The notes beneath the pieces are model-generated. The model did not search any database. It saw nothing but the letters and a program-made list of their open reading frames with translations, and had not been told where the DNA came from. A stretch of 39,065 nucleotides of DNA. It comes from Agromyces humi. Lineage in GTDB: Bacteria > Actinomycetota > Actinomycetes > Actinomycetales > Microbacteriaceae. The stretch is from the NCBI RefSeq assembly GCF_009720255.1, contig NZ_WJSP02000008.1, positions 1 through 39,065 of the forward strand, in the 5' to 3' direction. The position numbers and the translations under genes are program-made. Of this stretch, positions 6,917-37,054 are shown piece after piece. Positions within the stretch are counted from its first letter, which is position 1; each line of letters starts with the position of its first letter.

Positions 6917-7825
6917 GTGACGACGAACCTGAGCGCTGAGAACCGGTACCTGCAACGCCCGAACGGGAAGCTGAACGGCTCGGACCCCAAGCCGCAGAGC
7001 GCCGCAGAAATTTCGCTGCCCGGCCACGGGCAGGATTCCGCGCATGTCACAGGCATGACCTCTGCCACCCCGCAGGACATTCTCACGTCGGAGATCCCCG
7101 ACCTGTGCGTGTTCGACCTTGAAACCACCGGCATCGACGTGTTCGACGCCCGCATCGTCACCGCCTACCTCGGCCGTGTCAACCGACAGAACCAGATCAC
7201 CGGGTCGTACTCATGGCTGGTGAACCCCGGCATCGAGATCCCCGAAGGCGCAGCCGCAGTGCACGGGATCAGCACCGAAGTCGCCGTCCGCGACGGCCGC
7301 GACCCCGCCGAGTCGGTCAACGAGATCCTCACCGTGATCCGCCGCTCCATCAGCACCGGCCGGCCGATCGTCGCCTACAACGCCGCATACGACCTGTCAC
7401 TCCTGAACGCGGAAGCCCGCCGGTACGGGCTCGACCCGATCGACGACTGGGGTGTGGTCATCGACCCACTCATCATCGACAAGAAGGTCGACAAGTACCG
7501 CCGCGGGAAGCGAACCCTCGAGGTGACCGCCGCGCACTACGGCATCACCCTGGAAGGCGCACACGACTCGATGTACGACGCGATCGCCACCGGCGCTGTC
7601 ACCTGGCAGGTGCTCGGGACCATGATCGGGCACCGCGACTTCGGCGACTACCGCCTCTCCGAACTGCACGCGCTCCAGGCGGAGTGGGCCCGGGAGCAGC
7701 AGGAGTCGTTCCAGGCGTACAAGCGCAGCAACGGCGAGCCGGACTTCACCGTGGACTTCGGATGGCCTGAGCGCGACCCTCGCACTCCGTCGACGGAGGA
7801 GAAGGTCGTCTCGGCAGCAGCCTGA
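6917..7825 (+). CDS. DnaQ-family 3'-5' exonuclease with N-terminal tag
   Basis: 302 residues from GTG 6917, or 256 from ATG 7055 in the same frame. Each start has its own motif copy 8 or 7 nt upstream and no Shine-Dalgarno. The domain shows Exo I 'FDLETTG', Exo II 'IVAYNAAYDLSLL' and Exo III 'GAHDSMYDA' (HxxxxD), so the DEDDh active site is complete. This is the proofreading/RNase T type of 3'-5' exonuclease. The first 46 residues of the long form hold the shared tag (NGKLNGSDPKPQSAAEISL) seen in six later proteins, which supports the longer start. It is followed by a terminator and a convergent gene. The substrate (DNA or RNA) cannot be told. Confidence 0.85.
   Translation: MTTNLSAENRYLQRPNGKLNGSDPKPQSAAEISLPGHGQDSAHVTGMTSATPQDILTSEIPDLCVFDLETTGIDVFDARIVTAYLGRVNRQNQITGSYSWLVNPGIEIPEGAAAVHGISTEVAVRDGRDPAESVNEILTVIRRSISTGRPIVAYNAAYDLSLLNAEARRYGLDPIDDWGVVIDPLIIDKKVDKYRRGKRTLEVTAAHYGITLEGAHDSMYDAIATGAVTWQVLGTMIGHRDFGDYRLSELHALQAEWAREQQESFQAYKRSNGEPDFTVDFGWPERDPRTPSTEEKVVSAAA
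7038..7047 (+). promoter_or_regulatory. CCGCGCATGT motif, 7 nt before ATG 7055
   Basis: An internal motif copy placed to drive a shorter, untagged exonuclease from ATG 7055. The spacing is identical to that at other leaderless starts. Confidence 0.5.
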
Positions 7826-7840
7826 CCTGCTGACCCTGTT

Positions 7841-7877
7841 GAAGGCGCGGCCGCGGATCGTTCCCGGCCGCGCCTTC
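7841..7877. terminator. Bidirectional hairpin between convergent genes
   Basis: A perfect 13-bp stem (GAAGGCGCGGCCG and complement) with an 11-nt loop, between the stops of the exonuclease (plus) and the HA-domain gene (minus). Confidence 0.75.
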
Positions 7878-7881
7878 GGCG

Positions 7882-8418
7882 TCAGTACGAGCCGACGGTA
7901 GCCAGCCGGTTCGCGGGGTTGTTCCGCATCGCCTTGAACATCTCCATCGCGTCGGAGGATGCACCGCCGCGGTCCCAGCCGGACAGGTACTCGTCGAGGA
8001 GGTCCACCCACGCACGGGGGAGACGGCCGTCACGGTTCGCCTTGACCTTCTCGATCACCCACATCGCCAGGGATCGTTCATGCTCGTCCGGGCTGTCACC
8101 GTTCGGCATCCGGTGCTCCTGCGATTTGAACATCGCCACCGCGACGAGCTCCACCTCGAACTGCTCCTGTGCGGACATCTGCCGCCACTCGGGGATCTGC
8201 TGGTCGAGCAGCACCTCACGGTCGGGGCGGAGGTCCCCGACGCGGAGCGCGTCTCGCTGCTTCGCCAGCCACCGGCCGGCCAGCCGCTCGTAGCCGACGT
8301 CGTCCGCCTGCGGCAGACGGCCGATCTCCGCGACCTGGTTCACCGCGTTCCGCAGCGACCACTTCCACTGGTTCTCCGCCTTGATGTCGTTCAGGGCGGC
8401 GTCATTCTCATCGAACAT
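7882..8418 (-). CDS. Helicase-associated (HA) domain-like protein
   Basis: 178 residues from ATG 8418, 7 nt after a CCGCGCATGT motif, without a Shine-Dalgarno (putative leaderless start). Residues about 30-80 read 'GRLPQADDVGYERLAGRWLAKQRDALRVGDL...LLDQQIPEW'. This matches the pattern of actinobacterial helicase-associated domains (GRxP, LGxWLxxQR, GxL, LDxxGW), thought to bind nucleic acid. The C-terminal part is helical ('AWVDLLDEYLSGWDRGG') without a recognised fold. No helicase motifs are present, so it is a stand-alone domain. Its role is unknown. Confidence 0.55.
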   Translation of the reverse strand: MFDENDAALNDIKAENQWKWSLRNAVNQVAEIGRLPQADDVGYERLAGRWLAKQRDALRVGDLRPDREVLLDQQIPEWRQMSAQEQFEVELVAVAMFKSQEHRMPNGDSPDEHERSLAMWVIEKVKANRDGRLPRAWVDLLDEYLSGWDRGGASSDAMEMFKAMRNNPANRLATVGSY

Positions 8419-8425
8419 GCCCCAC

Positions 8426-8448
8426 ACATGCGCGGGTCCGCCGCATGT
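8426..8448. promoter_or_regulatory. Back-to-back divergent motif pair
   Basis: ACATGCGCGG (minus, 7 nt before ATG 8418) and CGCCGCATGT (plus, 8439-8448, before the GTG at 8484) lie 3 nt apart, forming a near-palindrome that serves the two divergent genes. Confidence 0.65.
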
Positions 8449-8483
8449 CTCCCTTCCTGGAACCGAACACCGGAGGAGCAACC

Positions 8484-8705
8484 GTGACCACCAACCCCGA
8501 ACCCATCGCGATCGTCGAAGCCGAACGGGACCTCGCCGCCAACGACCTTCCACCACAAACCGACGACAAAGCCGCTGTGCGCATGGCCTCCGACCGTGGC
8601 CGTATCGGCGCCACCTGGACTTCAACCATCATCACCGGCGCAGTCGTCGGCGTCGTCCTGGCATTCGCGTTCTTCCCCGCGCATGGAGTGGGCGTCGGAC
8701 ACTAA
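8484..8705 (+). CDS. Small C-terminally anchored membrane protein
   Basis: 73 residues from GTG 8484, preceded by GGAGGAG at 8472. A polar, acidic N-terminal region (about 45 residues) is followed by one membrane span (TIITGAVVGVVLAFAFFP) and a short glycine-rich tail. It is probably a tail-anchored protein in the cytoplasmic membrane. Its 3' end contains the motif for the next gene. No family is recognised. Confidence 0.6.
   Translation: MTTNPEPIAIVEAERDLAANDLPPQTDDKAAVRMASDRGRIGATWTSTIITGAVVGVVLAFAFFPAHGVGVGH
8677..8686 (+). promoter_or_regulatory. CCGCGCATGG motif within the 3' end of the small membrane gene
   Basis: It lies 36 nt before the TTG start at 8723, which has its own GAGGAGA. 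Confidence 0.5.
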
Positions 8706-12303: not shown

Positions 12304-12677
12304 TCGGCAGGTCTCCGGAGGCCGACGCTGAGACCGGCGAGCATAAGTGCAAGGAGTCCTTCGACTGGCGCGCCAAGGACGCAGACCATCGGTCCGACTA
12401 TCGAGACAACGACGAAGGTGCACGCAGTCGCAACGCTGGAGGACCGAAGGCTCGCTCCGGAAGCTTTCATGGTCCAGAACGCGGCGGCGGTCCACATGAA
12501 GGGCACCGAGTAGATGTAGGCCGCGCCGATCGGGCTGATAGGAACGTCCCAGACCGAAGCTCCAAAGTCCTGCCAGCCTGATGCTCCCTCCGAGCAGGCC
12601 GCAAACCACAACGCAAAGTGGGTCAGAGAGGCAACGAGAGTGAGGTAGCGGGCGACCGTGGCGGCCGAGAACCTCAT
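12294..12677 (-). CDS. Multi-span membrane protein downstream of thyA
   Basis: 127 residues, ATG overlapping the thyA stop (ATGA), so it is coupled. Four hydrophobic segments are visible: [20 protein letters not shown], '[19 protein letters not shown]', '[19 protein letters not shown]' and '[13 protein letters not shown]'. No family is recognised and there is no sign of transporter motifs. It is cotranscribed with thyA, which may be incidental. Confidence 0.6.
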
Positions 12678-13477
12678 ACCGCCACCGCGGCCCGGATCCC
12701 CGGATGCGGTTCGTACCCGATCACCTGCAGGTCGTCGAATTCGTAGTCGAACACGGATGCCCGTTCTGCGAGCTGGAGTTCGGGGTAGGGCCGCGCGTCG
12801 CGGCTGAGCTGCAGCTTCACCTGTTCGACGTGGTTGGCGTAGATGTGGGTGTCACCGCCGGTCCAGACGAACTCGCCGACCTGGAGGCCTGTTTGCGCGG
12901 CGATGAGGTGGGTGAGGAGGGCGTAGGAGGCGATGTTGAACGGGACGCCGAGGAAGAGGTCGGCGGAGCGTTGGTACAGCTGGCAGGAGAGCTTGCCGTC
13001 GGCGACGTAGAACTGGAAGAGCGCGTGGCACGGCGGGAGTGCCATGTTGTCGATCTCGGCTGGGTTCCAGGCGGACACGACGAGCCGGCGGCTGTCGGGG
13101 GTGTTGCGGATCTGTTCGATGACCTTGGAGATCTGGTCGATGGTGCCGCCGTCACCGTCCGGCCATGAGCGCCACTGCTTCCCGTAGACGGGTCCGAGCT
13201 CGCCTTCCTCATCGGCCCACTCGTCCCAGATGGTCACTCCGCGTTCCTGCAACCATCGGACGTTCGAGTCGCCCCGGAGGAACCAGAGCAGCTCGATCGC
13301 GATCGATTTCCAGTGCACCTTCTTGGTGGTGAGGAGCGGGAAGCCGTCCGCGAGGTCGTAGCGGATCTGACGGCCGAACACCGAGTAGGTGCCGGTGCCG
13401 GTCCGGTCGGTCTTGAACGTGCCGTGCTCGAGCACGTCGCGGAGAAGGTCTTCGTACGGCGTGGGGATGGCGTTCAT
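12674..13477 (-). CDS. thyA: Thymidylate synthase
   Basis: 267 residues, the normal ThyA length (264 in E. coli). It converts dUMP to dTMP with methylene-tetrahydrofolate. Visible hallmarks: '[12 protein letters not shown]' (phosphate-binding loop), '[11 protein letters not shown]', '[20 protein letters not shown]', the catalytic '[12 protein letters not shown]' (Cys150), '[13 protein letters not shown]' and 'GDTHIYANH'. All look intact. The start overlaps the previous stop (ATGA), so it is the second gene of a short minus operon. A second thyA on an element secures dTMP supply for its own replication. Confidence 0.95.
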
Positions 13478-16792: not shown

Positions 16793-17617
16793 CTACAGAT
16801 CGAGCAGGTGGACGGTCTGTTCGATCATGCGCGGAACGAGGCGGGCGCGGTGCAGCTCCTCGTCGATGGCGGCTCGGACGTCCGCCTGGTCGGAGTACTT
16901 TCTGGCGCCGACACGGAACCCGACGGGCATCATGTCGGTGACGGCGAAGGTGCAGGCGAGGTCTTCCGGGTAGTTGGATTCCAGGTCGAGGATAGACAGC
17001 GCCGGTGCCATCCCGAGGAGGCGGGTGACGTCCGCGGCGATCGCGGTGACGGCGTCTCCTGCGATGTCGAGCGCCACGTTCGTCGGGTCCTGACCGCCGC
17101 GCTCCCGGCGTTTCCGCATTCCGTACCGGGTGGCGAACTTCTGGTGGGTCTCGTCGATCATCTCGGCGTCGAGGGCGTGGAGCGCACCGATGGTCGCCCC
17201 GTCGACCGCGACGGCGTCGCCCATCCGGGCGGCGTACACGCGGCGGGTGGCGCCGTCGCGGAGCTCGTCGCTGGCGAAGATGTACGCCTGGGACTGGACG
17301 AGCGACTCGATCGGGAGCGCTTCGGGTTTCCAGCTGTGATCGCCGACGGTGCTGATGAGTCGGACGGCGGCTTCCGTGAGGATCTTCTCGGCTGCCGGGG
17401 TTGGGCTGGCGCCGTGGCCGAGGCCTATGATCACGTGACCTTCGGGAAGAGTGATCGGCTGGCGTGCGGTGTCCGCGTCTTCCTCTTCGACGGAGACGAC
17501 GGCGAGGCTGTTGCCGGACTTGACGATGCGGGCGTAGTCGATCTGTGCGTAGTGGATCGAGCTGGGGCCTTCGGCGCTCCGGCTGACGGTGGTGAACTGC
17601 AGTGGGGTGGTGCGCAT
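16793..17617 (-). CDS. Cas1e-like protein with degenerate active site
   Basis: 274 residues, ATG overlapping the cas6e stop (ATGA). The order of conserved features follows Cas1e: N-terminal beta domain ('IHYAQIDYARIVKSGNSLAVV'), 'ITLPEGHVIIGLGHGA.PTPAA', then the helical domain 'RRVYAARM', 'FATRYG', 'NVALDIAGDAV' and 'LGMAPALSILD'. By my hand alignment the metal-binding residues are changed: E141 of E. coli Cas1 is Asp150, H208 is Asp211, D218 is kept as Asp219, and D221 is Cys222. No cas2 follows. Integrase activity is therefore doubtful. It may be a structural or regulatory remnant, or a repurposed DNA-binding protein. The family call is by motif order and operon position. Confidence 0.6.
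   Translation of the reverse strand: MRTTPLQFTTVSRSAEGPSSIHYAQIDYARIVKSGNSLAVVSVEEEDADTARQPITLPEGHVIIGLGHGASPTPAAEKILTEAAVRLISTVGDHSWKPEALPIESLVQSQAYIFASDELRDGATRRVYAARMGDAVAVDGATIGALHALDAEMIDETHQKFATRYGMRKRRERGGQDPTNVALDIAGDAVTAIAADVTRLLGMAPALSILDLESNYPEDLACTFAVTDMMPVGFRVGARKYSDQADVRAAIDEELHRARLVPRMIEQTVHLLDL
16825..16834 (-). promoter_or_regulatory. CCGCGCATGA motif inside the cas1-like 3' end
   Basis: It points toward ATG 16786, 38 nt away, with TAGGAAG as Shine-Dalgarno. Confidence 0.5.
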
Positions 17618-18159
17618 CAGGCTGCGGCTCCGATCAGGATCATGCCGCACCCGAAGGAGCGTGCTCGGCCGACGCCGGTGGCGAGGAGTTCGTCCAGCGC
17701 GTCGGGGTCGGTGATGGTGGCTGTGGCGTCGACGGTTTCGACGATGAGTGGTGACCGGCCGCTGTGGTCGACCCGCCGGTTGGTGTTGAGGACGGCGAGG
17801 TCTTCGAGTGCGCCAGCGGTGCGTTCCGCGATCCAGGTCTCGATGTCGTCGACGGGGCGGACTCCGCCGGCCCGGGAGCGTCGGATCGGGTTCACGACGG
17901 CGCGAACGGAGACCCGGGTGCCCGCGGCTGGGCTCGAGGATTCGGTCACGGTGCGAGCTCCGTCGGGGAGGCGCGTCGGCGCGACCGCGGAGCGGACGAT
18001 GATCCGGTCTCCGAACTCCGCGAACAGCACTTGGCTGGTCGCGCGTCGCTCCTTCGCGGCCCCTGGGAGGTCGTGGGGGAACAGCTCCATGACCTGGCGG
18101 TGCCGGTCGTTGAACCGCGCCGCCAGTGAACGGACGGGAACTTCGGTGAGGTAGCTCAC
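17617..18159 (-). CDS. cas6e: Type I-E CRISPR crRNA endoribonuclease Cas6e
   Basis: 180 residues from GTG 18159, chosen over ATG 18171 because GGAGGG precedes it and it overlaps the cas5 stop (GTGA). Cas6e cuts pre-crRNA within the repeat and stays on the 3' hairpin. The N-terminal 'FNDRHRQVMELFP' carries the catalytic-type His in the usual place. The C-terminal 'GVGRARSFGCGMILI' is the glycine-rich loop typical of Cas6. Length is slightly below the usual 200-230. Its presence implies processing of crRNAs from an array elsewhere. Confidence 0.85.
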   Translation of the reverse strand: MSYLTEVPVRSLAARFNDRHRQVMELFPHDLPGAAKERRATSQVLFAEFGDRIIVRSAVAPTRLPDGARTVTESSSPAAGTRVSVRAVVNPIRRSRAGGVRPVDDIETWIAERTAGALEDLAVLNTNRRVDHSGRSPLIVETVDATATITDPDALDELLATGVGRARSFGCGMILIGAAA

Positions 18160-18854
18160 GCGGCCCTCCATTTCTGCAGCAGTTCAGATCGGTTGGTGCA
18201 CCGCTCTGGGTGTACATGCGCGGTCGCGTAGCTTCTCGGGCTGTTCAGGTGGTGGAGCGGCAGCGCCGGGGCGGTCGACGCGGTGGGAAGCTGCTCGAGC
18301 ACGGTTTCCGGTGTGCCTTGGGTGATGCCGAGCCGGAACGGGAACGTGGGTGAGAAGGCCTTCCTCCCGAGGTAGGTCATGAACTCGGGGTTCCGGATTG
18401 CGTGGTCGACCGTGTCGACGACGCCAGGGTCCGGATGGGTAATCGCCACGATGAACTCGGCGTCGGCGAGGAACGACCGGTGCGTCGTCATGGTCGTCGC
18501 ACCGTGCGCGGACCATTTCGTTCCCTTCCCGGTGGGGACGGCGAAGTCGGCGGTTCGCCGGTCGGCGCCGAGGGAGCCGATGTACCGCTGCCTGGTGCGG
18601 GATGAGGCGACCGCGGCCGGCGGTGCTGAGATGGTGTGGAAGTCGTTCACGGCCGTGCCAGGCTTGTCGACCCGCACCCAGATGTCGAGCTCGTCGAGCC
18701 ATGGAGCGTCGACGTCGCGGGTGATGCCGGCGGCTGCAGCGATGAGACCAAGGACCGCTGACCTGGTGGGGACACCCTCGGTGGGGCGGGTCGTGAACGG
18801 GGAGCTCGCGTACGACTGGGCGGGCCCTGCGAACCGCAGGAGCAGGGTGGTCAA
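18156..18854 (-). CDS. cas5e: Type I-E Cascade subunit Cas5e (CasD)
   Basis: 232 residues from TTG 18854, overlapping the cas7 stop (TTGA). The N-terminus 'TTLLLRFAGPAQSYASSPFTTRPTEGVPTRSAVLGLIAAAAGI' is the Cas5e signature (RxxGPxQSYG...R.T...PTkSgvlGLiaaalG). It continues with 'ELDIWVRVDKPG' and 'DFHTI'. Cas5e holds the 5' handle of the crRNA. The last 20 codons contain a motif copy for the cas6e side. Confidence 0.9.
   Translation of the reverse strand: MTTLLLRFAGPAQSYASSPFTTRPTEGVPTRSAVLGLIAAAAGITRDVDAPWLDELDIWVRVDKPGTAVNDFHTISAPPAAVASSRTRQRYIGSLGADRRTADFAVPTGKGTKWSAHGATTMTTHRSFLADAEFIVAITHPDPGVVDTVDHAIRNPEFMTYLGRKAFSPTFPFRLGITQGTPETVLEQLPTASTAPALPLHHLNSPRSYATAHVHPERCTNRSELLQKWRAA
18214..18223 (-). 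promoter_or_regulatory. CCGCGCATGT motif inside cas5e
   Basis: It points toward cas6e (GTG 18159), 54 nt away, and could give extra cas6e/cas1-like transcript. Confidence 0.4.
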
Positions 18855-22077: not shown

Positions 22078-22084
22078 TCCGAGG

Positions 22085-22094: not shown

Positions 22095-22149
22095 GTGTGG
22101 GCTGGAAGCAAACCATTTCCTACTATGCGCCGTTGGGGGAGGGCAGTCG

Positions 22150-22155
22150 TAGAGT
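22150..22155 (+). promoter_or_regulatory. TAGAGT -10 box with leaderless spacing
   Basis: TAGAGT is 6 nt before GTG 22162: ordinary TANNNT geometry, divergent from the Cascade operon. Confidence 0.5.
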
Positions 22156-22161
22156 CGTGCC

Positions 22162-22593: not shown

Positions 22594-22668
22594 CCGGGAC
22601 TGTCCATTGCGAGCTCGGCGGCGTGCCCGGGAGGCGCTCTATCCGAAGGGCCATCCCTGAACCCCAGA

Positions 22669-23358: not shown

Positions 23359-23418
23359 TTTCTGAGTATCGTCGTTCCCGGCACGCCTTGTATACGGTAG
23401 CCGCTCTGAATTACTTCG

Positions 23419-26874: not shown

Positions 26875-29193
26875 GTGACTGAATCCCAATCCGGCAACGA
26901 AGACCTCGTCGAGACCGTCCTGGCCGCCGCCGTTGAGATCGGTGTCGGCAGCGCCGACGCGAAACCCCGACCTGGGCAGCTCGGCCTTGCCCGCGACATC
27001 GCCAAGGCGATGCAGCCGGTGCTGAACACCGACGCGGTCGGCTCCGGCCGCGGACACGTGTCCGGGCTCGCCGGCGTCGGAATCGGCAAGTCCTTCGCGT
27101 CCCTCTCGAACGCCGCGGTCCGTGCGGTGAAGTACCAGGAGCGGACCCTCTACTCGACCAAGTCCCTGTCCCTGCAGGCGCAGATCGTCGACAAGGACGC
27201 CCCGGTCGTCTCCCTCGCCGCCCAGCGGGTCCTCGGCGGTGGGTTCACCACCGCGGTGCTGAAAGGGTGGGGCAACTACGCCTGCATGAACCGGGCGTAC
27301 GAGTTCGGGATGGCGCTGCTCGGAGAGGACACCGGCAGCTTCGCCGGACCTGAATCGCTCGCGCCGCTCATGCAGAAGCTGCAGAGCCTCCCCGACACCG
27401 GCGCCGTCAACATCGAAGGCGCCGAGCTCGACCTCGCCGAAGTGAAGCCCCTCGCGATCTGGGCGCTCTCCCAATGCCTCGGCGATGACCAGTCAGGCGA
27501 CAAGGACACGTACGACGGCGCGGTGTCCGAGAACTCATGGAGCCAGGTGTCCGTCAGCCCGGAAGAGTGCATCGGGTTGGGTGAATGCCCGTTCGCTGAC
27601 GTCTGCCGCTCCGACCGCGCCCGGAACCGTGCCGCAGAGGCGGACGTCGTCGTGACCAACCACTCACTCCTCGCCGTGCAGGCCACCGTCGGGGCACCCG
27701 TGGTCCTCGGCAACCAGGTCCTCGGCCGGTTCGACCACCTCATCGTCGATGAAGCCCACGAACTTCCGAAGGTCGTACGCGCCCAGGGTGAGGCGTCCAT
27801 CTCCGGCCGCCGCCTGAACCAGGTGATCCGCCTCGTCCGCGCGATCGCGGACGAACGCTCCAACAAGGTGTCGAACTGGGCTGAAGACGGCCACATGATC
27901 GCCGACCTCGTCGAAGCGGAGATCCACCGCGTGTTCGCCGACACCTCGAACGGTGAGATCGGCCGGTTGAACCCTGAAGACGATCCGCTCGAGGAGACCG
28001 GCGACCCGGTCGTCGCATGGGCGAGAGTCGGATCCCGGCTGATCCGCGAACCTCTCGCCGCGGCGATCCGCGCAGGCCAAATGAAGCAGGTCATCGCAGG
28101 GAAGAAGGCACAGTCCGCGATCGACAAGCTGATCGCCGATGTGAACAACGTACGGAAGGACCGCAGCGGGCAGGCCCGGTGGCTGCAGGCACCGCCGCTG
28201 CAGGCGGTCGCGCCGGGTCGTCGCCGGATGAAGCCGTGGCACACGGTCCAGGCCGCGCAGGTGGAGGTCGGCGGGATGCTGAAAGGCAACCTGTGGACGC
28301 AGAAGATCGAAGACGAGGAGACCGGCGACGAGCTCGACATCTCCCCGTCGGTGGCCTGCATTTCGGGGACACTCCCGAAGAACTTCATCAACGAGGTAGG
28401 CCTGTCCGCACGGCAGACCGTCGAGTACGAGCTCCCGTTCAAAGAGGCGTACGAAGAGTCGATGCTGCTCATCCCCGACGCGAAGTCCGCAGCGGACATC
28501 GAAGCGCTCACCCTCCCGAACGTGCACGGCGGCCGCCGCCGGTTCTCCACGACGAAGCATCACGCGTGGGCGCTCGGGAAGATGAAGGAGCTGATCGACG
28601 CGAACGGCGGGCACGCACTCGTCCTCTCCGCCACCGGCGACGGTGCGAAGGAGTACGCGAAGGAGCTCGCCAAGCACGCCGCCGGCCGCTACAACGTGTA
28701 CACCCAGTGGGATGCGTCCTCGCCCCGTCTGGTGATCGCGAAGTGGAAGGAGGACCTGTCCAGCGTCCTCGTCGGCACCCAAGGCCTGATGACCGGAACG
28801 GACGCGCCGGGGGAGACGTGCTCGCTGGTGATCCTGGACCGGTCGCCGCGCGCTGCGGGGAACCCGGTCGACGACGCCCGCGCCGCGCTGATCGCCGAGC
28901 GCCTCGACGGCAACGGGAAGAACGCGGAGTTCGCCTCCAAGCGCATGGTCTACGTCTCCGACGCCTGCGAGAAGCTCGAGCAGGCGCGAGGTCGCCTCGT
29001 GCGCTCCGCCGGTGACCGCGGTGTCTTCGCGATGCTCGACCCCCGGCTCCTGAAGAACCACCCCTTCACGTACGAGGAGAGCAGCAGGAAGCTGATGATG
29101 GACACCATCGACGTCTTCGGGAACCGGACGACGGACACCGCCGTCGCCGTCGAGTACCTCCGGTCGCGCCGCCACGCGCTGGCCGCCGCGTGA
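26875..29193 (+). CDS. DinG/XPD-type ATP-dependent helicase
   Basis: 772 residues from GTG 26875, a leaderless-type start 7 nt after the motif. Walker A 'AGVGIGKS' (about 66-73). Four cysteines in the place of the XPD/DinG iron-sulphur cluster (Cys137, then Cys232, Cys238 and Cys244 in 'EECIGLGECPFADVC'). Box II 'VDEAHEL' (DEAH 292-295). C-terminal 'LVLSATGDGAKEYAKEL', 'VLVGTQGLMTGTDAPGETCSLVILDR' and 'LEQARGRLVRS' are the second RecA domain motifs. These enzymes unwind 5'-3' on DNA. Similar helicases are associated with plasmids (including type IV CRISPR loci) and phages; here it lies next to type I-E genes but diverges from them. Confidence 0.85.
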   Translation: MTESQSGNEDLVETVLAAAVEIGVGSADAKPRPGQLGLARDIAKAMQPVLNTDAVGSGRGHVSGLAGVGIGKSFASLSNAAVRAVKYQERTLYSTKSLSLQAQIVDKDAPVVSLAAQRVLGGGFTTAVLKGWGNYACMNRAYEFGMALLGEDTGSFAGPESLAPLMQKLQSLPDTGAVNIEGAELDLAEVKPLAIWALSQCLGDDQSGDKDTYDGAVSENSWSQVSVSPEECIGLGECPFADVCRSDRARNRAAEADVVVTNHSLLAVQATVGAPVVLGNQVLGRFDHLIVDEAHELPKVVRAQGEASISGRRLNQVIRLVRAIADERSNKVSNWAEDGHMIADLVEAEIHRVFADTSNGEIGRLNPEDDPLEETGDPVVAWARVGSRLIREPLAAAIRAGQMKQVIAGKKAQSAIDKLIADVNNVRKDRSGQARWLQAPPLQAVAPGRRRMKPWHTVQAAQVEVGGMLKGNLWTQKIEDEETGDELDISPSVACISGTLPKNFINEVGLSARQTVEYELPFKEAYEESMLLIPDAKSAADIEALTLPNVHGGRRRFSTTKHHAWALGKMKELIDANGGHALVLSATGDGAKEYAKELAKHAAGRYNVYTQWDASSPRLVIAKWKEDLSSVLVGTQGLMTGTDAPGETCSLVILDRSPRAAGNPVDDARAALIAERLDGNGKNAEFASKRMVYVSDACEKLEQARGRLVRSAGDRGVFAMLDPRLLKNHPFTYEESSRKLMMDTIDVFGNRTTDTAVAVEYLRSRRHALAAA

Positions 29194-30860: not shown

Positions 30861-30870
30861 CCGCACACGA
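30861..30870 (+). promoter_or_regulatory. CCGCACACGA motif, 8 nt before GTG 30879
   Basis: First of four CCGCACAC copies leading the tagged-gene cluster. Its spacing selects GTG 30879 over the upstream ATG 30843. Confidence 0.6.
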
Positions 30871-30878
30871 ACACCCTC

Positions 30879-31727
30879 GTGCTCGAGCAGCCGAGGAACC
30901 GCACAGGCCAGTGGAAGGCGTACGCGCCATCCGCCGCCGACGTGGTGCTTGTCGCGCCGGCCGAGCCGGCGCTGTTCGATGTCACGCGGATCTCCGTCCG
31001 GGACCGCGCGAAGCTGCAGGCGCATCTGGACTCCGTCGACCCGAACACCGGGTCGACGTTCGCTGAGACCTACCGGGCGTTCGCGCCGGAAGCTGTGTCC
31101 GAGGATCTCGTCTGGGTGCGCCGCGGCGCACCGCGAGAGCTTCGCTGGCGATTCCACAACGCCGAGGGCCGCACCGTTGACGTTCCCGCCGTCGTGGCGG
31201 CCGCAACCACCGTTCCGGACACCACCGACCCGCTGTCACCTGCGACCCACGCTCGCGACCGGGCACACCGGAAGTGGCAGAAGCTCGCAGAGCAGAGATC
31301 ACGGCGACGGGCACGGGTCGAACCGGCTGACCGCTACGCGCGGGTCGCAGAGGAGAACGCCGCGTATGGGCATTATCTGACCGCCGAGGCGGCACTCATC
31401 GCAGCCAAAGCCGCAGCCGCCCAGGCAGCCTTCACCGACCTGACATCCGCGTCCGAGCCGTTCACTGACGCGTTCATCCGGGAGCACGACCGCCACTTCG
31501 ACGCCGACCGGGCCGGCGTCACCCTCCCGCCGTTGGACGACCGAATCGAGCAGGCCCGGCAGGCTGCGTTCCGTCACTCGCAGGCCGCGAGGAAGGCAGC
31601 AGCGCACCTTCGGGCGTGGAACTCGACCGAATACGTCCAGAGACGAGCCGCGGGCCAGGTCACCCAGCTGCCGGCCGCACACACACAGGTGTATGAGTAC
31701 GATCCAGCCCACCCAGTGGGACGCTGA
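30879..31727 (+). CDS. Tagged coiled-coil protein, first of the cluster
   Basis: 282 residues from GTG 30879 (motif 8 nt upstream). The N-terminus carries the shared tag TGQWKAYAPSAADVVL at residues 9-24. Residues 30-110 form an alpha/beta region ('LFDVTRISVRDRAKLQAHLDSVDPNTGSTFAE', 'ELRWRFHNAEGRTVDV'). From about residue 125 the protein is a long Ala-rich charged helix ('KWQKLAEQRSRRRARV', 'AALIAAKAAAAQAAF', 'QAAFRHSQAARKAAAHL'). No family is recognised. Its 3' end overlaps the next gene by 35 nt and carries that gene's motif. Confidence 0.6.
   Translation: MLEQPRNRTGQWKAYAPSAADVVLVAPAEPALFDVTRISVRDRAKLQAHLDSVDPNTGSTFAETYRAFAPEAVSEDLVWVRRGAPRELRWRFHNAEGRTVDVPAVVAAATTVPDTTDPLSPATHARDRAHRKWQKLAEQRSRRRARVEPADRYARVAEENAAYGHYLTAEAALIAAKAAAAQAAFTDLTSASEPFTDAFIREHDRHFDADRAGVTLPPLDDRIEQARQAAFRHSQAARKAAAHLRAWNSTEYVQRRAAGQVTQLPAAHTQVYEYDPAHPVGR
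31675..31684 (+). promoter_or_regulatory. CCGCACACAC motif, 8 nt before ATG 31693
   Basis: Inside the 3' end of the previous gene; leaderless spacing to ATG 31693. Confidence 0.55.
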
Positions 31728-33027
31728 CGAGCACGCACGACACCCAGCGACCGGGAAGTTCATCGACATGAACAAGCGGTCAGACCCTCGCGATCTCGGC
31801 GGGGTCATCCTCGAAGCGTACGAGGAGCCGGAGTGGGACTGGGCTCCGCCGATCCCGCAGTGGGAGTTCCAGGCCACCAGCGTTCCCGCGGCGGTCGCGA
31901 AGGTCGAGCAGGCGAACGCCAAGCTCGAGAAGCTCGGCATCGAGGAACGGTTCACGTACGAGACCGAGTACTTCGTTCGCACGAACTACGGCATCACCCA
32001 GGAGATGGCCCGGTTCACCCTGAACCGCCCGTCCATCAAGTTCGAAGGGTGGTCGTTCACCGGCGCCCACGACTTCACCCCAACCGGGGAGGTCGTCTCC
32101 CACCTCGCCGGTGACGCCACCTCCGAGATCCCCGAGGACAACCACTGCGACCACTGCGGCTCCACTAGGGCCCGTGACCGGGTGTACACGATCAACCATC
32201 CCGAGAAGGGGACGATGCAGGTCGGGAAGAGTTGCCTGAAGGCGTTCCTTGGCATGTCCCCGGTCGGTCTCTGGACGTTGGAGTCCGACCTCGAACTCGA
32301 CGACGTCAAGTACCAGTCCGACCACACCGTGAACCCGGGCGCGCAAGTGTGGGACGTCGACGAGCTGCTCATCGCCGCGCTCGCACAGACGAACGACGGC
32401 GCTGAGTACATCAGCCGCGACCGCGCGACCTTTGAGCAGCGATCGACCGGCGATGCCGTGGCCTTGAACTTCACCACCCTCCTCGCCGCTGGCGACTCCG
32501 CCAAGCGCCGCCGGCTCGCACGGTCGATCGTCGCCTGGGCGAAGAAGCTCGACGGTGAACCCGGAACGTACGAGGGCAACCTCAAGTCGATCTTCTCCGG
32601 CAAGCGGGAAGAGAACTACGTCCGCAAGCAGCACTTCGGGCTCGCGGTGTCAGTCGTGTCCGCGTACCACCGAGCACAGCAGGCAGCTGTGGAGAAGAAG
32701 GTGCAGGAGCAGGCCCCTCCCGCGCTCAAGTCGTTCATCGCTCCGAAGGACACGAAGCTCGAGGGTGTCGACGCGACCGTCGAGAAGGTCATCTCCGTCG
32801 AGGTGTACGACCCGTACAAGCGGAGGGATGTCACCAAGCGGGTGCTGACCCTCCGCACCCCGGACGGCCACCTGATCAAGTGGTGGGGTGGCGGCAAGGC
32901 TGACGAAGGCCTCGCAACCGGGCAGAGCATCCGTATCAAGGCCGCCATCGTCAAGGACAACGAGGTGTACCGCGACGAGTACCAGACGGTCGTGAAGAAC
33001 GTCCGGCTGGAGCCGACCGCGGCCTAG
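31693..33027 (+). CDS. Tagged protein with CxxC zinc-finger-like site
   Basis: 444 residues from ATG 31693. Tag TGKFIDMNKRSDPRDL at residues 20-35. The central part holds 'EDNHCDHCGSTRARDRVYTINHPEKG' and 'VGKSCLKAFLG', a likely zinc site of CxxC plus a later Cys, a block seen in proteins of actinobacterial plasmids and phages. Residues about 330-440 look like an OB-type beta domain ('LRTPDGHLIKWWGGGKADEGLATGQSIRIKAAIVKDNEVY'). Nucleic-acid binding is plausible. The role is unknown. It is followed 19 nt later by the next tagged gene. Confidence 0.65.
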   Translation: MSTIQPTQWDADEHARHPATGKFIDMNKRSDPRDLGGVILEAYEEPEWDWAPPIPQWEFQATSVPAAVAKVEQANAKLEKLGIEERFTYETEYFVRTNYGITQEMARFTLNRPSIKFEGWSFTGAHDFTPTGEVVSHLAGDATSEIPEDNHCDHCGSTRARDRVYTINHPEKGTMQVGKSCLKAFLGMSPVGLWTLESDLELDDVKYQSDHTVNPGAQVWDVDELLIAALAQTNDGAEYISRDRATFEQRSTGDAVALNFTTLLAAGDSAKRRRLARSIVAWAKKLDGEPGTYEGNLKSIFSGKREENYVRKQHFGLAVSVVSAYHRAQQAAVEKKVQEQAPPALKSFIAPKDTKLEGVDATVEKVISVEVYDPYKRRDVTKRVLTLRTPDGHLIKWWGGGKADEGLATGQSIRIKAAIVKDNEVYRDEYQTVVKNVRLEPTAA

Positions 33028-33028: not shown

Positions 33029-33038
33029 CCGCACACCT
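33029..33038 (+). promoter_or_regulatory. CCGCACACCT motif, 8 nt before ATG 33047
   Basis: It lies directly after the previous stop; leaderless spacing. Confidence 0.6.
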
Positions 33039-33046: not shown

Positions 33047-34222
33047 ATGAGCAAACGATTCGACGAATCCAACGTCAACCGTGTGGTCGCCGGGAACGGC
33101 GACCTCTCTGGCACTTTCGCAACCAAGGGGCAGACCAGCGCTGACTTCGGCGGTCTGGTCGCCGACTTCTGGGGGAGCGTCGACCTCAGCATCGGGTCGC
33201 GCACACCGTACGGGGCAGCAGACCACATCGAACACGTCGCCGACGGCATCGTGTTCGCCGGCACCCCCAGCCACGGCTCCTACAAGCTGTCGAAGGAACG
33301 GAACGCCGCAATCCCGGCCCCGCTGCGCCGCTCGTGGTACGAGGAGGATGCAGAATCGAGCATCGTGCAGATGTTCCACCCGGACGCGTTCCCAGCCGTC
33401 GATCAGGCCGCCGCGGAGCAGTCCGTGAAGGACTGGTTCCCGAACGAGTACGAAGCCGCGACCGGCCGGGAGCTCCTCGTCGGTGAATCCCACCTCCGCG
33501 ACGAGCAGCGCTGGACCGAGGCGCACTTCGACGACCTTGTCTCCCACGGCGTCCAAGGCGACCCCGACCGACCCGGCTACGTCATCGTCGGCGTCCGCCA
33601 CCGCGGGCAGGACACGAACCGACGCTTCCGAGTGCCGATCGACGAGCACCGCACCGAACGCCGGCTGGGTGAGCCTGGACAGAACCGCCGCATCGTAATC
33701 GACCCAGCACGACACGAAGAGCTCGAACCGCTCCCCGACAAGGTACTGACGCCGGCACCGAAGTACCGGGGGATCCAGCCGGGGAAGACACCGGCCGCGC
33801 AGGCGCAGATCAAGAAGGATCTCGACAAGCTGTGGCGAACCCCTGACGGCAAGGTCAGCTCGTTCAGGGAGTTGCTCGAGGAGCAAGGCGTCACCGCGAA
33901 GAGCTCGTACTTCCAGGGCGGCCGCCGCACGTACACGGTGTCGTTCAAGGATCATGTCGAGGAGTCCTGGGGGCACTCGTACCAGGTGTCGAAGGCGACT
34001 TGGGATGCGCTCGAAGCACCCGACGACCGGTCCCCGTACCTCATCGCATTGCAGGAACAGACCCAAGCCGCCGACGCGTACGAGAAGCTCAGCACGCAGC
34101 GGTACACGATCGGCAGCGACGCGTTCTTCAGGCACCAGCAGCAACTTCTGAAGGCGAAGGAGAAGGCAACCCACGCCGCCGACCGCGTCGCACAGCTGAG
34201 CAAGAAGCCCGCCGAGGGGTAG
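33047..34222 (+). CDS. Tagged protein with DUF7007-like domain
   Basis: 391 residues from ATG 33047. Tag SGTFATKGQTSADFGGL at residues 21-37. Then 'SRTPYGAADHIEHVADGIVFAGTPSHGSYKLSKERNAAIP', 'RRSWYEEDAESSIVQMFHPDAFP' follows the DUF7007 pattern (TPWG..., GI...TPSHGG..LS..R...VP, WYEED...). This domain recurs in plasmid and phage proteins of unknown role, often near anti-restriction genes. The second half contains 'HRGQDTNRRFRVP' and a C-terminal coiled coil ('FRHQQQLLKAKEKATHAADR'). Confidence 0.65.
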   Translation: MSKRFDESNVNRVVAGNGDLSGTFATKGQTSADFGGLVADFWGSVDLSIGSRTPYGAADHIEHVADGIVFAGTPSHGSYKLSKERNAAIPAPLRRSWYEEDAESSIVQMFHPDAFPAVDQAAAEQSVKDWFPNEYEAATGRELLVGESHLRDEQRWTEAHFDDLVSHGVQGDPDRPGYVIVGVRHRGQDTNRRFRVPIDEHRTERRLGEPGQNRRIVIDPARHEELEPLPDKVLTPAPKYRGIQPGKTPAAQAQIKKDLDKLWRTPDGKVSSFRELLEEQGVTAKSSYFQGGRRTYTVSFKDHVEESWGHSYQVSKATWDALEAPDDRSPYLIALQEQTQAADAYEKLSTQRYTIGSDAFFRHQQQLLKAKEKATHAADRVAQLSKKPAEG

Positions 34223-34237: not shown

Positions 34238-34247
34238 CCGCACACGT
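34238..34247 (+). promoter_or_regulatory. CCGCACACGT motif, 7 nt before ATG 34255
   Basis: It lies 15 nt after the previous stop; leaderless spacing, identical 10-mer to that at 6899. Confidence 0.6.
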
Positions 34248-34254: not shown

Positions 34255-35073
34255 ATGACCACGACAGACATCCAGGGCAACATCCATGACCGCGACGGCA
34301 AGTTCGCCGGCCACATCCCCACCGCAGCAGCCGTGAAGCTGCCAGCACCCGCGGTGAGCGACGACGAGTTCGCCCAGCTCAACGATGCGCTCCGCGGCGC
34401 CCAGTCGATCCTCGACAGCGCACGCACCGCGCAGGCGATCGCCGTGAAGCAGGTGATCGTCGCAACGGCCCGCAGGAACTTCCCGAACGCCGAACGTGTC
34501 ACGTTCGTCGAGTGGTACGACAGCACCGACGGCCAGCTGCAGCTCTTCGCGATCGAAGACGCCGACGGCAACTCAATCGTCGACGGCGAGACGGACTACG
34601 GCCAGGACGCCTGGGCGCTGCTCGCCCTCGCACGCCGCATCGACAACCAGGACCTCGTCACCGTGTTCGACGAAGGCGACCACCCCGACGGGAACACCTA
34701 CTCCCTCGACCTCACCGGAGACCTCGGGAAGCGGTGGAGCCCGGGCGAGTCGCTGAACCTCACGACCATCTCGGCAGCAGAACTCTCCCGGCTGCACTCG
34801 GATGTCTCCTACGAGGCCGGACAGATCGCCTCGTTCGCCAGCATCAGCGACCTCGACTACCGCCTCTACGAGGATCCCGCCTGGTACGGGATCAAGGCTG
34901 AGTCGGTCGCCAAGGCTGAGCAGGCCGCCGGCGGCAAGGACGAACTCCTCCGCGCGATCACTGGTACGGCCGCCTGGAACACCCTCGAAGAGAACGCCAA
35001 CGAGCAGATCAACGACCAGTACACCGAAGGCATCACCAAGGCCCTCGACGAGATCATCGACGGTGCCCTGTGA
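34255..35073 (+). CDS. Tagged acidic hypothetical protein
   Basis: 272 residues from ATG 34255. Tag DGKFAGHIPTAAAVKL at residues 14-29. The rest is acidic and well folded in appearance: 'FNPAER'-like 'NFPNAERVTFVEWYDSTDGQLQLFAIEDADGN', 'DYGQDAWALLALARRIDNQDL', 'FDEGDHPDGNTYSLDLTG'. It resembles small acidic proteins of actinobacterial mobile elements but no family is certain. Its stop overlaps the next start (GTGA). Confidence 0.6.
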   Translation: MTTTDIQGNIHDRDGKFAGHIPTAAAVKLPAPAVSDDEFAQLNDALRGAQSILDSARTAQAIAVKQVIVATARRNFPNAERVTFVEWYDSTDGQLQLFAIEDADGNSIVDGETDYGQDAWALLALARRIDNQDLVTVFDEGDHPDGNTYSLDLTGDLGKRWSPGESLNLTTISAAELSRLHSDVSYEAGQIASFASISDLDYRLYEDPAWYGIKAESVAKAEQAAGGKDELLRAITGTAAWNTLEENANEQINDQYTEGITKALDEIIDGAL

Positions 35074-36224
35074 GCGCCGGCGCGTACGTCCGCGGCGGAG
35101 CCCGCCAGGGCGCGCACCGCTCCTCAGGTGAGTTCTCCGAGCACACGCACACGGAAGCGGGAGTCACCCTCACGGTGAACGAGTACGCCGACAAGACCCC
35201 GTCCGAGATCGACGAAGTCCTCGCGAAACTCTTCAACGACCGGGCCCGCCTGTACGCGTACCTCGAACGGCCCGCCGAGGCCCTCCGGAACCACGAAGCG
35301 GAGATGAAGTACCGAGCCGAGAACGACGGCAACGCCCGGATGGCTCGCCACAAGCTGAACGAATGGAACCTCCGAAGCACCACCGAAGAGGTAGCCCGAT
35401 ACCGCAAGGAGATCGCAGACCTCGACGCGAAGATCGCACCGATCGACGCTGAGTTCGACGCCCGAGGCGGATGGTCCCGGTTCTTCCTCGTCCAGAACCT
35501 CGGCGGCCACGTCCACTCAAGCATGTCCTGCTCAACCTGCTTCCCGACCACCCGCTTCGGATGGCTGACCGAACAGTCCGGGATGAACGAGGAGGAGATC
35601 GTCGAACTGGCGGGTGACTTGGCTTGTTCTTCGTGCTTTCCGTCGGCCCCCGTAGTCGACCGCCGCAACCCACGGCCGAACCAGCTGGAAACGCCGGAAG
35701 GCCGCGCGGACCGCGAGAAGCGTGAAGCAGAGAAGGACGCGCGCGCCAAGGCGAAAGCGGAGCGTGAAGCGAAGCAGGCCGCCGCAGCAATCAACACTCC
35801 TGACGGGGAACCGATCTACGACAGCTACCGCCGCCCGTTCAAGAACGAACGGACCGCCGAAAGCGAAGCGATCGGCAAGCTCGAGAACGCCATCTACTGG
35901 GACGGAGTCGCAGGCGACCACGAGTACGCCCGTGTCGTCGGAGAAGTCCTCGCCGGCCTCGCACACAAGCGCGGCATCGACCAGGCAGAGCTCCGCACGA
36001 CCTGGATCGAGAAGACGATCAAGAAGACGAAGTCACAGCCGAACCGCACGGCAGCGGAGTTCCGGATGGGGAAGATCTTCGACGCAGCCGACGCGTATCT
36101 CGCCAAGAAGGGCGAGCTGAAGTACGCCCTGGACAGCGCCGCGGGCGCAGAGACATACGAAGCGGCGAAGATCGCCTGGGAAGAGCACATCGGCGCCCGG
36201 AAGCATCCGTCGTCGCGGTACTGA
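35070..36224 (+). CDS. Tagged protein with a conserved actinobacterial mobile-element Cys domain
   Basis: 384 residues from GTG 35070, coupled to the previous gene. Tag SGEFSEHTHTEAGVTL at residues 19-34. A coiled-coil region (about 40-120) leads to 'GGWSRFFLVQNLGGHVHSSMSCSTCF', 'FGWLTEQSGMNEEEIVELAGDLACSSCFPSAPV'. This block with HVHSS and two CxxC pairs is widespread in actinophage and plasmid proteins and probably binds zinc. The C-terminal half is charged and helical. Function not established. It ends before a strong terminator. Confidence 0.7.
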   Translation: MSAGAYVRGGARQGAHRSSGEFSEHTHTEAGVTLTVNEYADKTPSEIDEVLAKLFNDRARLYAYLERPAEALRNHEAEMKYRAENDGNARMARHKLNEWNLRSTTEEVARYRKEIADLDAKIAPIDAEFDARGGWSRFFLVQNLGGHVHSSMSCSTCFPTTRFGWLTEQSGMNEEEIVELAGDLACSSCFPSAPVVDRRNPRPNQLETPEGRADREKREAEKDARAKAKAEREAKQAAAAINTPDGEPIYDSYRRPFKNERTAESEAIGKLENAIYWDGVAGDHEYARVVGEVLAGLAHKRGIDQAELRTTWIEKTIKKTKSQPNRTAAEFRMGKIFDAADAYLAKKGELKYALDSAAGAETYEAAKIAWEEHIGARKHPSSRY

Positions 36225-36236
36225 CCGGTCGTGGTC

Positions 36237-36246
36237 CCGCGCATGG
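36237..36246 (+). promoter_or_regulatory. CCGCGCATGG motif just before the 36250 terminator
   Basis: It lies 12 nt after the stop at 36224 and runs straight into the terminator stem. No start codon follows at 7-8 nt. Confidence 0.4.
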
Positions 36247-36249
36247 GTA

Positions 36250-36275
36250 GAGCGTCCCCCAAACGGGGGACGCTC
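36250..36275 (+). terminator. Strong terminator of the tagged-gene cluster
   Basis: A perfect 11-bp stem (GAGCGTCCCCC and complement) with a 4-nt loop. CTTTTTC follows 15 nt later. Confidence 0.8.
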
Positions 36276-36356
36276 GGCCTGATTCTGAGGACTTTTTCTC
36301 AAACGCACAGCGACGTCGGTAACAATAGGTCCGGCGCGCTCAGGGAACTCTCAGGG

Positions 36357-36366
36357 CCGCACACAC
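36357..36366 (+). promoter_or_regulatory. CCGCACACAC motif upstream of the last tagged gene
   Basis: It lies 52 nt before ATG 36419. TAACAAT at 36319-36325 in the same gap could be a separate host-type -10 box. Confidence 0.5.
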
Positions 36367-36418
36367 ATAAGAGCCCGAGGCGGAAACGCATCGAGATCGA
36401 TCGGATTGGGGCCGAAAG

Positions 36419-37054
36419 ATGACAGCAGGCGGCGCTGCGCGCAGCCGAGCCGGGGACGAACGTCACCTGGCACTCATCCAAGCGCTCCAGAGACACTCCG
36501 AACGCGGGGGAGACGGCCGCTTCATCGAAGCCACTCACACCTCCCCAGACATCAGCCTCGCCCCAGGCGGGAACCTGCCCGACCTCGACGAGCTCCTGTT
36601 CGGCAACGTCCCCGCGATCATCGAGCCGCGCACCCACGCTGACCTTGAAACCGCGGCCGCCGCGGTGGACCTCGCACCTGCCGGACAGATCCCGCTTCTG
36701 CACCTCTGCCACCAGCTCGAGCGGACCTTCGACGTGGAACTCGCCGGCCCTGCAGACGGGCGACCCCTCATCGTCAACGTCGCCACAGGCAGCGGCTGGC
36801 TCCGCGTCACCTCCGGCTACGTTGTCACACGCATCGACTCACGGACCCCCGTGAAAGTGACCGTGGCCTGCCAGTCCGACGTCACCGTGATCATCGAACC
36901 AGGCCGGGCAGCATCCGTCACCGTCGACGACGGCGCGGCCGCAACCGTGCATGTCGGTGAAGGCGCTCGAGGTCTCCTCCACGTCACCGGCCAAGCCGAC
37001 GTGAACGTCCTCGGCGACACCCGCAACTTCCGAAGGACAGCCCTGGCGATCTAG
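36419..37054 (+). CDS. Tagged beta-rich hypothetical protein
   Basis: 211 residues from ATG 36419. The tag DGRFIEATHTSPDISL is at residues 32-47, after an N-terminal helix (HLALIQALQRHSE). Residues about 95-205 are an unbroken series of short beta strands ('PLIVNVATGSGWLRVTSGYVVTRIDSRTPVKVTVACQSDVTVIIEPG', 'SVTVDDGAAATVHVGEGARGLLHVTG'). This suggests a beta-helix or jelly-roll repeat. No family is recognised. It begins a new unit after the 36250 terminator. Confidence 0.6.
   Translation: MTAGGAARSRAGDERHLALIQALQRHSERGGDGRFIEATHTSPDISLAPGGNLPDLDELLFGNVPAIIEPRTHADLETAAAAVDLAPAGQIPLLHLCHQLERTFDVELAGPADGRPLIVNVATGSGWLRVTSGYVVTRIDSRTPVKVTVACQSDVTVIIEPGRAASVTVDDGAAATVHVGEGARGLLHVTGQADVNVLGDTRNFRRTALAI

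Follow-up and report, generated by a model that had tools for sequence, protein, structure and literature searches.

Seven window genes with a common N-terminal head

The DNA analysed here is a 39,065-nucleotide contig of Agromyces humi (NZ_WJSP02000008.1, hereafter the window), one of the 812 contigs of a 4.39-Mb assembly (GCF_009720255.1). Seven of its genes, all on the forward strand, encode proteins that open with variants of one short peptide, which we call the head; proteins that carry it are referred to as tagged and the remainder of each protein as its body. An earlier note had read such a shared tag at the N-terminus of these seven otherwise unrelated proteins, and all seven peptides were confirmed. 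A short DNA motif, CCGCACAC, referred to as the start element, recurs upstream of these genes.

A DEDD exonuclease of the RNase_T family (6917-7825) has a divergent head (GKLNGSDPKPQSAAEISL, core at 6965-7018), with the start element at 6899-6906, 10 nt before GTG 6917. The other six genes lie further downstream. A protein without Pfam match (30879-31727; head core 30906-30950, GQWKAYAPSAADVVL) begins 10 nt after the element at 30861-30868. Judged by the upstream element, GTG 30879 and GTG 6917 are the most likely starts of these two genes. The following gene (31693-33027) encodes a protein with a conserved, zinc-finger-like CxxC...C motif and a predicted C-terminal oligonucleotide/oligosaccharide-binding (OB) fold; its head is divergent (GKFIDMNKRSDPRDL, core at about 31753-31797) and the element (31675-31682) lies 10 nt before ATG 31693. 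A DUF7007 protein (33047-34222; head core 33110-33157, GTFATKGQTSADFGGL) has the element at 33029-33036, 10 nt before its ATG, and a further protein without Pfam match (34255-35073; head core 34297-34341, GKFAGHIPTAAAVKL) has it at 34238-34245, 9 nt before its ATG. The start of the next tagged gene (35070-36224; head core 35127-35171, GEFSEHTHTEAGVTL) overlaps the stop of the preceding one in a GTGA sequence, with no start element. Finally, no start codon follows the element at 36357-36364 with the customary spacing; ATG 36419, which opens the last tagged gene (36419-37054, no Pfam match, head core 36515-36559, GRFIEATHTSPDISL), is 54 nt downstream.

The shared head is thus real, while the looser consensus first proposed for it, with a variable stretch in its middle, needed tightening. 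Its core is an ungapped 15-mer, G-[QRK]-F-[AGT]-[EA]-[HQK]-x-[RH]-[ST]-[EA]-A-[DE]-[VI]-T-L, and the residues before it are often R, H, G, P or A. Among 87 heads, the initial G is kept in 76, the F in 81 and the final L in 77. The head starts at about residue 12 (quartiles 9, 12 and 16).

The window was also scored with a profile built from 166 heads of other elements, on its 40 genes of at least 100 residues and with a cut-off of 4 bits. Four N-termini passed: 35070 (22.4 bits), 36419 (13.4), 34255 (12.7) and the 30879 gene, called as 30843 (5.4). The 33047 head, at 3.7 bits, is a weak match below the cut-off, and an unrelated N-terminus at 16796 scored 2.8. At 4 bits, the controls gave 0 of 40 reversed N-termini, one internal segment and no C-terminus. 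Hence, with a profile free of own-genome sequences, three of the seven heads are clear, one is moderate, one weak and two are missed, these being the most divergent, at 31693 and 6917. The 31693 head is backed by its start element and by a head at the same place on homologues in four other head-bearing elements, the 6917 head by its start element and its position only.

One head on unrelated bodies

A profile search was carried beyond the window, on genes called by a custom script whose calls at tile edges include some truncated doubles. On plasmid pACHL01 (NC_011879), which was excluded from training, 50 of 406 N-termini reached at least 5 bits, against none of the 406 reversed sequences, one of 406 segments covering residues 61-120 and one of 406 C-termini. 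The parts of NZ_CP104273, an Arthrobacter plasmid, that surround its matches gave 35 of 188 N-termini, one internal segment, no reversed sequence and no C-terminus. With a profile of 17 own-genome heads, 103 of the 105 matches of at least 6 bits in the own contigs, in plasmid pS16 and in parts of four other plasmids fell within the first 80 residues. The tiles of elements W01, W03, W04, W05 and W10 (NZ_CP104273) were chosen around head matches, so that tagged fractions are too high in them; the reversed and internal controls are unaffected. The reversed, internal and C-terminal controls reject a chance origin of the head. In pACHL01 about 48 proteins, nearly a tenth of the genes, are tagged, since the 51 calls hold two truncated doubles and one probable false match.

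The bodies behind the heads are mostly unrelated. They form 55 clusters in 102 tagged gene calls and 117 clusters in a set of 185 heads, which extends to 4 bits and in which a few false heads are expected. This clustering, together with comparisons of homologue pairs, rejects homology of the whole proteins as the cause of the shared head, and the earlier description of a short conserved head on different bodies stands, neither of the two outcomes that the note had named as refuting it having occurred. Most tagged bodies have no known domain. Among 96 tagged proteins, nine Pfam families were found (LRV_2, LRV, GmrSD_N, DUF7007, RNase_T, ArdC-N, Peptidase_M78, KTSC and Peptidase_M48). The 82 tagged proteins of pACHL01 and NZ_CP104273 gave 24 families, among them DUF7007 (three proteins), PolyA_pol/CCA-adding (two), DUF2958 (two), Sigma70_r2 (two, weak), LigA, Fic, LPD29, ParBc_2 and KTSC. 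A set of 82 length-matched untagged soluble proteins gave 79 families; LPD29, DUF7007, KTSC, ArdC-N, Fic and ParBc_2 were not among the 25 of these that were listed.

Tagged proteins are soluble: a membrane-like segment occurs in 3 of 286 tagged gene calls versus 410 of 1674 untagged ones (p=1.6e-27), and in two of the three exceptions the head itself is a weak call. Tagged proteins are also short (medians 227.5-293 residues) and more acidic than untagged soluble proteins, with a median isoelectric point of 4.85-5.44 versus 5.39-6.19. On pACHL01, an NAD-dependent DNA ligase (304002-305318) and a CCA-adding enzyme (59444-61114) are both tagged. The ligase homologues in pS16 and in Pseudactinotalea are untagged; the CCA-adding homologue is untagged in pS16 and tagged in Pseudactinotalea.

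Two protein families show how the head relates to its body. In an alignment of seven DUF7007 proteins, taken from seven different head-bearing elements, every member has a head-like N-terminus. For the 31693 family, homologues on four head-bearing elements start with the head, and those on headless Rhodococcus, Mycolicibacterium and Dietzia plasmids start, as annotated, at the body. Scans for this family gave five loci in genome contigs and four in viral contigs. In an AlphaFold model of the window protein, residues 1-52 have a predicted local distance difference test score (pLDDT) below 50, a weak indication from an eight-sequence alignment of which half is headless, and the head is probably disordered. 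The whole model has a pLDDT of 71 and a predicted template modelling score of 0.35. Foldseek placed OB-fold single-stranded DNA-binding proteins on top for the C-terminal part (best E 1.6e-3), with no match at E 0.001 or below, so that this likeness is a lead only. A sequence search of the PDB with the same protein gave no match at E<=1.

The same family bears on whether the head is a signal for virion packaging, one of the functions first suggested. The elements would then be giant phage-plasmids, the head loading internal head proteins as for T4 or P1. Their replication gene set and size resemble, as we take it, those of large phages, and a 31693 body lies within a 3842-residue protein of a Thermobispora plasmid (locus 1210-12735) that adjoins a phage portal gene. 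This protein has the N-terminus HPRDRKGRFIETG, which loosely resembles the front half of the head. However, the head profile has no match on the Thermobispora plasmid. Furthermore, no capsid, portal or terminase is among the 25 PHROG families listed of the 91 found for 78 untagged pACHL01 proteins, nor among the names given by the Prokaryotic Genome Annotation Pipeline (PGAP) in about 213 kb of the 546-kb pS16. We therefore regard packaging into virions as very improbable. The proposal that similar heads occur on other actinobacterial plasmids and phages held for plasmids, seven of which are head-rich (see below). It did not hold for the phage homologues at hand: those of the 31693 family on four viral contigs, one of them a body inside a 2678-residue protein, have no head that we could find, neither phage collections having been scanned with the profile nor the N-termini of 36 phage homologues read.

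Head-rich elements, their dialects and their start element

With the window heads as seed, 23 places in the own genome match at E<=10, the seven window heads included, and other contigs hold about 20 more tagged genes. Heads on contigs C468, C179, C434, C224, C118, C112 and C117 were found with a profile of the seven, and the start element adds tagged genes on C129 and C135; weak matches on C172, C246 and C249 were set aside. Since several own contigs (C112, C117, C118, C179 and C434), like the window, carry homologues of genes shared by related elements, we infer that the window belongs to a single megaplasmid or integrated element that is broken up over several contigs. On C68, near 7461, a second exonuclease-type head follows a start element (NGKLNGS...), in a frame that ends after 71 codons. 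On C24, at 6287, an untagged DNA-methylase-looking protein stands behind the same arrangement of CCGCACAC, 10 nt and ATG.

The head is a property of particular elements. A genus-wide feature was rejected: 9 of 59 other genomes of the genus have one weak match each, against 22 matches in the own genome, although this search missed one genome (G057) to which a later profile gave three matches. Of 297 genomes sampled across the order, 17 have a head match at E<=0.01; five have at least three heads (27, 14, 8, 4 and 3) and twelve have one, about three being expected by chance. Across the class, at least 3 of 394 genomes match at E<=0.001, the own genome included, with the best candidates (at most 21 per genome) scored. 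Comparisons that started from the window bodies reached, besides other records, 375-608-kb plasmids of Curtobacterium, Paenarthrobacter, Pseudarthrobacter and Arthrobacter. Seven plasmids are head-rich, all of 400-608 kb and from Micrococcales (Curtobacterium and Arthrobacter relatives): five have 15, 30, 25, 16 and 19 matches at E<=0.5, and at E<=0.1 there are 39 on NZ_CP104273 and 50 on pACHL01. Four other plasmids reached through the same bodies are head-poor (1, 2, 1 and 0 matches). One Cellulosimicrobium contig also bears heads. Integrated forms of the element probably exist, because heads lie within large contigs of two genomes, over about 180 kb of the Pseudactinotalea genome G329 and 100 kb of genome G276.

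Each of several elements spells the head in its own dialect. The heads of pACHL01 read RQPKGIPxGGQFAATAHAEPxVxL, those of G329 RQPAGxxxGGQFATxxRxExxVxL and those of G276 KRDTGExGNKGxFGTxxRxDADVxV. Between different bodies of one element, head identity is 0.668 in W01, 0.562 in G276, 0.551 in G329 and 0.512 in W04, versus 0.26-0.31 to other elements, and the pooled difference was reached in none of 500 shuffles of the element labels; of W01, W03, W04 and W05, tiles only were used. Conversely, 95 pairs share a body across elements, 62 between close relatives and 33 between distant elements. In the distant pairs, head identity (means 0.10-0.33; G329-W02 0.27, G276-W02 0.26, own-W02 0.24, W02 being pS16) compares with a background of 0.27 for different bodies in different elements, so that at this distance a head does not go with its body. 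Since the label changes in step across the unrelated proteins of one element, these data suggest that its reader is encoded by the element itself.

At identical residues, codons match in 0.58-0.69 of cases in the four dialect elements, versus 0.48-0.55 expected from codon usage, and conservation is highest at second codon positions. A recent spread of heads by gene conversion is mostly rejected, codon identity being only moderately above this expectation. By these codon comparisons, selection in the dialect elements keeps the peptide while the DNA of the head has largely drifted. Altogether, the head is very probably a functional, element-specific peptide.

Of 293 tagged genes, 198 have the start element, CCGCACA[CT] or a close variant, 6-13 nt (mostly 8-10 nt) upstream of the start codon; of 2118 untagged genes, 183 have it. 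The pattern was written after viewing the upstream stretches of all elements except W10 and W11 (pACHL01). In these two it precedes 26 of 34 tagged versus 40 of 225 untagged genes (W10) and 29 of 51 versus 82 of 509 (W11). In the own genome, the pattern CCGCACACN{8,11}RTG occurs 35 times, versus 15 for its reverse, and 21 of the 35 lead into tagged open reading frames. In G276, the element stands before none of the 16 tagged genes and the head is nonetheless present. There, 6 of 13 tagged genes but none of 111 untagged ones have CCACTTC farther upstream, and several tagged genes carry not CCGCACAC but GCCCACTTC, about 30-45 nt upstream of the start and frequently accompanied by a GGAGG-like stretch.

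This enrichment could mean that start element and head codons form an expression leader, tuning translation or leaderless transcription of a regulon, with the peptide as a by-product. We find this improbable: the conservation is at the peptide level, synonymous choice in the four dialect elements being little above the codon-usage expectation. Moreover, untagged pACHL01 genes, as counted above, have the start element too, and it is absent in G276, where the head persists. Alternatively, recombination might place a standard gene front, made of the start element and about 30 first codons, on captured genes, the head being a footprint with little function. The 68 cross-element homologue pairs of which one member is tagged, indicative of gain or loss of the tag, the paired DNA element and a codon identity somewhat above expectation all speak for such a cassette. 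Nevertheless, dialect elements keep the residues while synonymous sites have largely drifted, which points to selection on the peptide after any capture, and we give this explanation only a slight chance.

Other genes of the window also recur in related elements. A YdjM-like membrane protein (37102-37902, forward strand), a thymidylate synthase named from its homologues (12674-13477, reverse strand) and a DinG-type helicase (Helicase_C_2; 26875-29193, forward strand) are all untagged; the first has homologues in related elements, the second is common to them and the third is common to related megaplasmids. The reverse strand at 16793-26238 presumably holds a type I-E-like CRISPR-Cas operon (cas5, cas7, cas8/cse1-like and cas3); the Pseudactinotalea element seems to have a comparable set near 1247-1255 kb. 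The stretch 2798-5962 presumably encodes a large surface protein with repeats and, after it, an SprT-like protein, and a related family of large surface-type proteins is common to own contig C117, pS16, pACHL01 and G276. Among the head-rich plasmids, pCPAA3 (W03, CP018784.1) has the same tagged genes twice (4984-8372 and 551886-554998), which suggests either that the plasmid contains a large repeat or that its circular record was deposited with an overlap. The Curtobacterium plasmid pS16 (NZ_CP126255.1) has a flagellar set annotated by PGAP at 335-345 kb (FlhA, FliP, FliQ, FliR, FliO, FliM, FliN, MotA and MotB), and presumably more flagellar proteins up to about 362 kb.

Coupling ATPases, a candidate delivery tag and known systems

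The elements have in common a coupling-type ATPase of 825 residues, which is encoded on C112 in the own genome and which PGAP calls "type IV secretory system conjugative DNA transfer family protein". Its match to TraG-D_C (E 0.0013) narrowly misses the curated cut-off, and a PDB sequence search with it gave no match at E<=0.01. A shared FtsK-like ATPase of 1400 residues has its best PDB matches in the "DNA translocase coupling protein" chains 6o1w, 6o1x and 6o1z, which we take to be TcpA, followed by FtsK and TrwB. The elements also share a second FtsK-like ATPase, and several have type II/IV secretion (pilus-like) ATPases.

Taking the head scan and the coupling-protein scan as covering the same 297 genomes, the coupling ATPase is present in seven: in all five genomes with at least three heads and in 2 of the 292 others (Fisher 1.1e-9), neither of these two being among the twelve with a single match. 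Likewise, it is found in all seven head-rich plasmids and in none of the four head-poor ones. Thus, in the genomes and plasmids searched, head-rich sets are confined to elements that bear the coupling protein. This is an association among linked genes of one element family.

Which signal this is can now be weighed. Of the four functions first suggested, targeting, packaging, secretion or docking, the head has the properties of a targeting or docking signal, and secretion together with the plasmid appears the likeliest. We see about an even chance that the head is an N-terminal delivery tag for cargo exported with the plasmid into the recipient. The head would be an address bound by a receptor that the element encodes, most likely a conjugative coupling ATPase, either the 825-residue TraG/TraD-like protein or the 1400-residue TcpA/FtsK-like translocase, or both. 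It would mark soluble cargo (nucleases, ssDNA-binding-like, anti-restriction, DNA ligase, tRNA-repair, Fic and ParB-like proteins, and many bodies of no known kind), which would enter the recipient with, or just before, the plasmid and would there protect and establish the incoming DNA. Separately made, commonly labelled proteins would then replace one "polyvalent" fusion protein. This reading agrees with the soluble bodies, as expected of T4SS (type IV secretion system) substrates, with the DNA- and RNA-handling and anti-restriction families among the few recognised, with the element-specific spelling and with the coupling ATPase that the elements encode. Receptor, export and function in the recipient are what we infer from the sequences. 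More tentatively, and as a possibility rather than a probability, each plasmid lineage may have its own label code, read by its own transfer ATPase, which would load a whole establishment kit into the recipient; any soluble body could join by gaining a head, and the dialects would keep apart the cargo of co-resident plasmids.

The address might also be intracellular, the head docking soluble plasmid proteins on a plasmid-encoded assembly, such as a replication or partition complex or a condensate, in the carrier cell, with no export. The tagged bodies do include DNA ligase, exonuclease, sigma-like and tRNA enzymes without membrane segments, and the elements bring their own polymerase III, ribonucleotide reductase, single-stranded DNA-binding protein (SSB) and thymidylate synthase. 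Nonetheless, the polymerase, ribonucleotide reductase, thymidylate synthase and SSB genes that were compared are untagged, and recruitment to a replication factory would be odd if the element's replication genes are themselves untagged. We regard such a docking role as unlikely, though of some weight.

Several observations count against the delivery reading. The 68 pairs with one tagged member mean that the tag is not essential for every body, and the tags on LigA and on the CCA-adding enzyme could equally well fit a role inside the donor. W02, W03, W05 and the window's element use several spellings, with a within-element identity of 0.26-0.30 versus 0.24-0.27; in the 62 close-relative pairs (W01-W04; W02, W03 and W05) heads follow the body, with means of 0.48-0.77; and in neither W02 nor the own element is the second codon position the most conserved one. 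Genomes G083 and G269 encode the coupling protein with no detectable heads, so that it is rejected as a perfect predictor of them, and co-occurrence does not single out the receptor, because the coupling protein, polymerase, ribonucleotide reductase and other core genes travel together. In addition, PLSDB types all seven head-rich plasmids as non-mobilizable and no relaxase is named, for which reason we do not class the head as a proven signal of a type IV secretion system (T4SS). The known T4SS signals are mostly C-terminal or internal. Lastly, the link to polyvalent proteins consists of few domains (ArdC-N in 1 of 96 proteins; LPD29 and ParBc_2 each in 1 of 82), and the text of PMC5512222 does not name KTSC or DUF2958. 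On a 72-kb contig of G083 (C5), the coupling ATPase lies with an FtsK-like ATPase and a YdjM-like gene and with no heads; either heads exist elsewhere in a form missed by the profile or the tag arose after this branch.

If the delivery reading is right, the head allows candidates for delivery (about 48 on pACHL01, mostly without known function) to be told by their sequence from the resident proteins of giant actinobacterial plasmids, and a shipped establishment kit becomes a testable idea. It would be an N-terminal, element-specific signal for conjugative protein transfer in Gram-positive bacteria, and the tagged set a modular counterpart of polyvalent proteins. Even with an intracellular address, the dialects suggest that plasmid lineages carry label systems of their own.

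We recognised no description of such a tag in word searches of the open-access PubMed Central (PMC) literature, and the nearest known systems each share a part of it. In bacteria-killing T4SSs, diverse effector bodies carry a common recognition module, XVIPCD. In the description used here this is a C-terminal domain (TfcB) and its effectors kill, unlike the tagged bodies, which are mostly DNA- or RNA-handling or of no known kind. The start-associated sequences of cluster K mycobacteriophages are also short asymmetric repeats just upstream of starts in different gene families, although their sequence differs and the passages relevant here mention no shared peptide head (PMC3203893). The F-type T4SS of pED208 ships several plasmid maintenance proteins (ParA, ParB1, ParB2, SSB, PsiA and PsiB), two of which act in the recipient; it is Gram-negative, and the passages used here speak of no head that these proteins share (PMC8406263).

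The BID signal of Bartonella comes closer, being one signal read by a T4SS on different conjugation and T4SS substrates (the relaxase, the Fic toxin VbhT, which travels with conjugation, and the Beps), but it is a C-terminal domain, whereas the head is an N-terminal peptide of 15-25 residues, predicted to be disordered in one modelled case (PMC5675462). Finally, Iyer et al. (2017, PMC5512222) argue that an element entering a new cell must have many different activities available there simultaneously, and that polyvalent proteins solve this by joining them in one or a few delivered proteins. The tagged set has in common with them ArdC-N, ParB-like nucleases, LPD29 and metallopeptidases, and giant proteins elsewhere contain the 31693 body as a fused part. 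Tagged proteins do not join many domains in one polypeptide, being short and with few recognised domains; they are separate proteins with one short N-terminal label, an arrangement not described in the sections of that paper considered here. The relation of the tagged set to polyvalent proteins is thus one of functional analogy, since in both cases, apparently, many activities have to be available simultaneously in the recipient.

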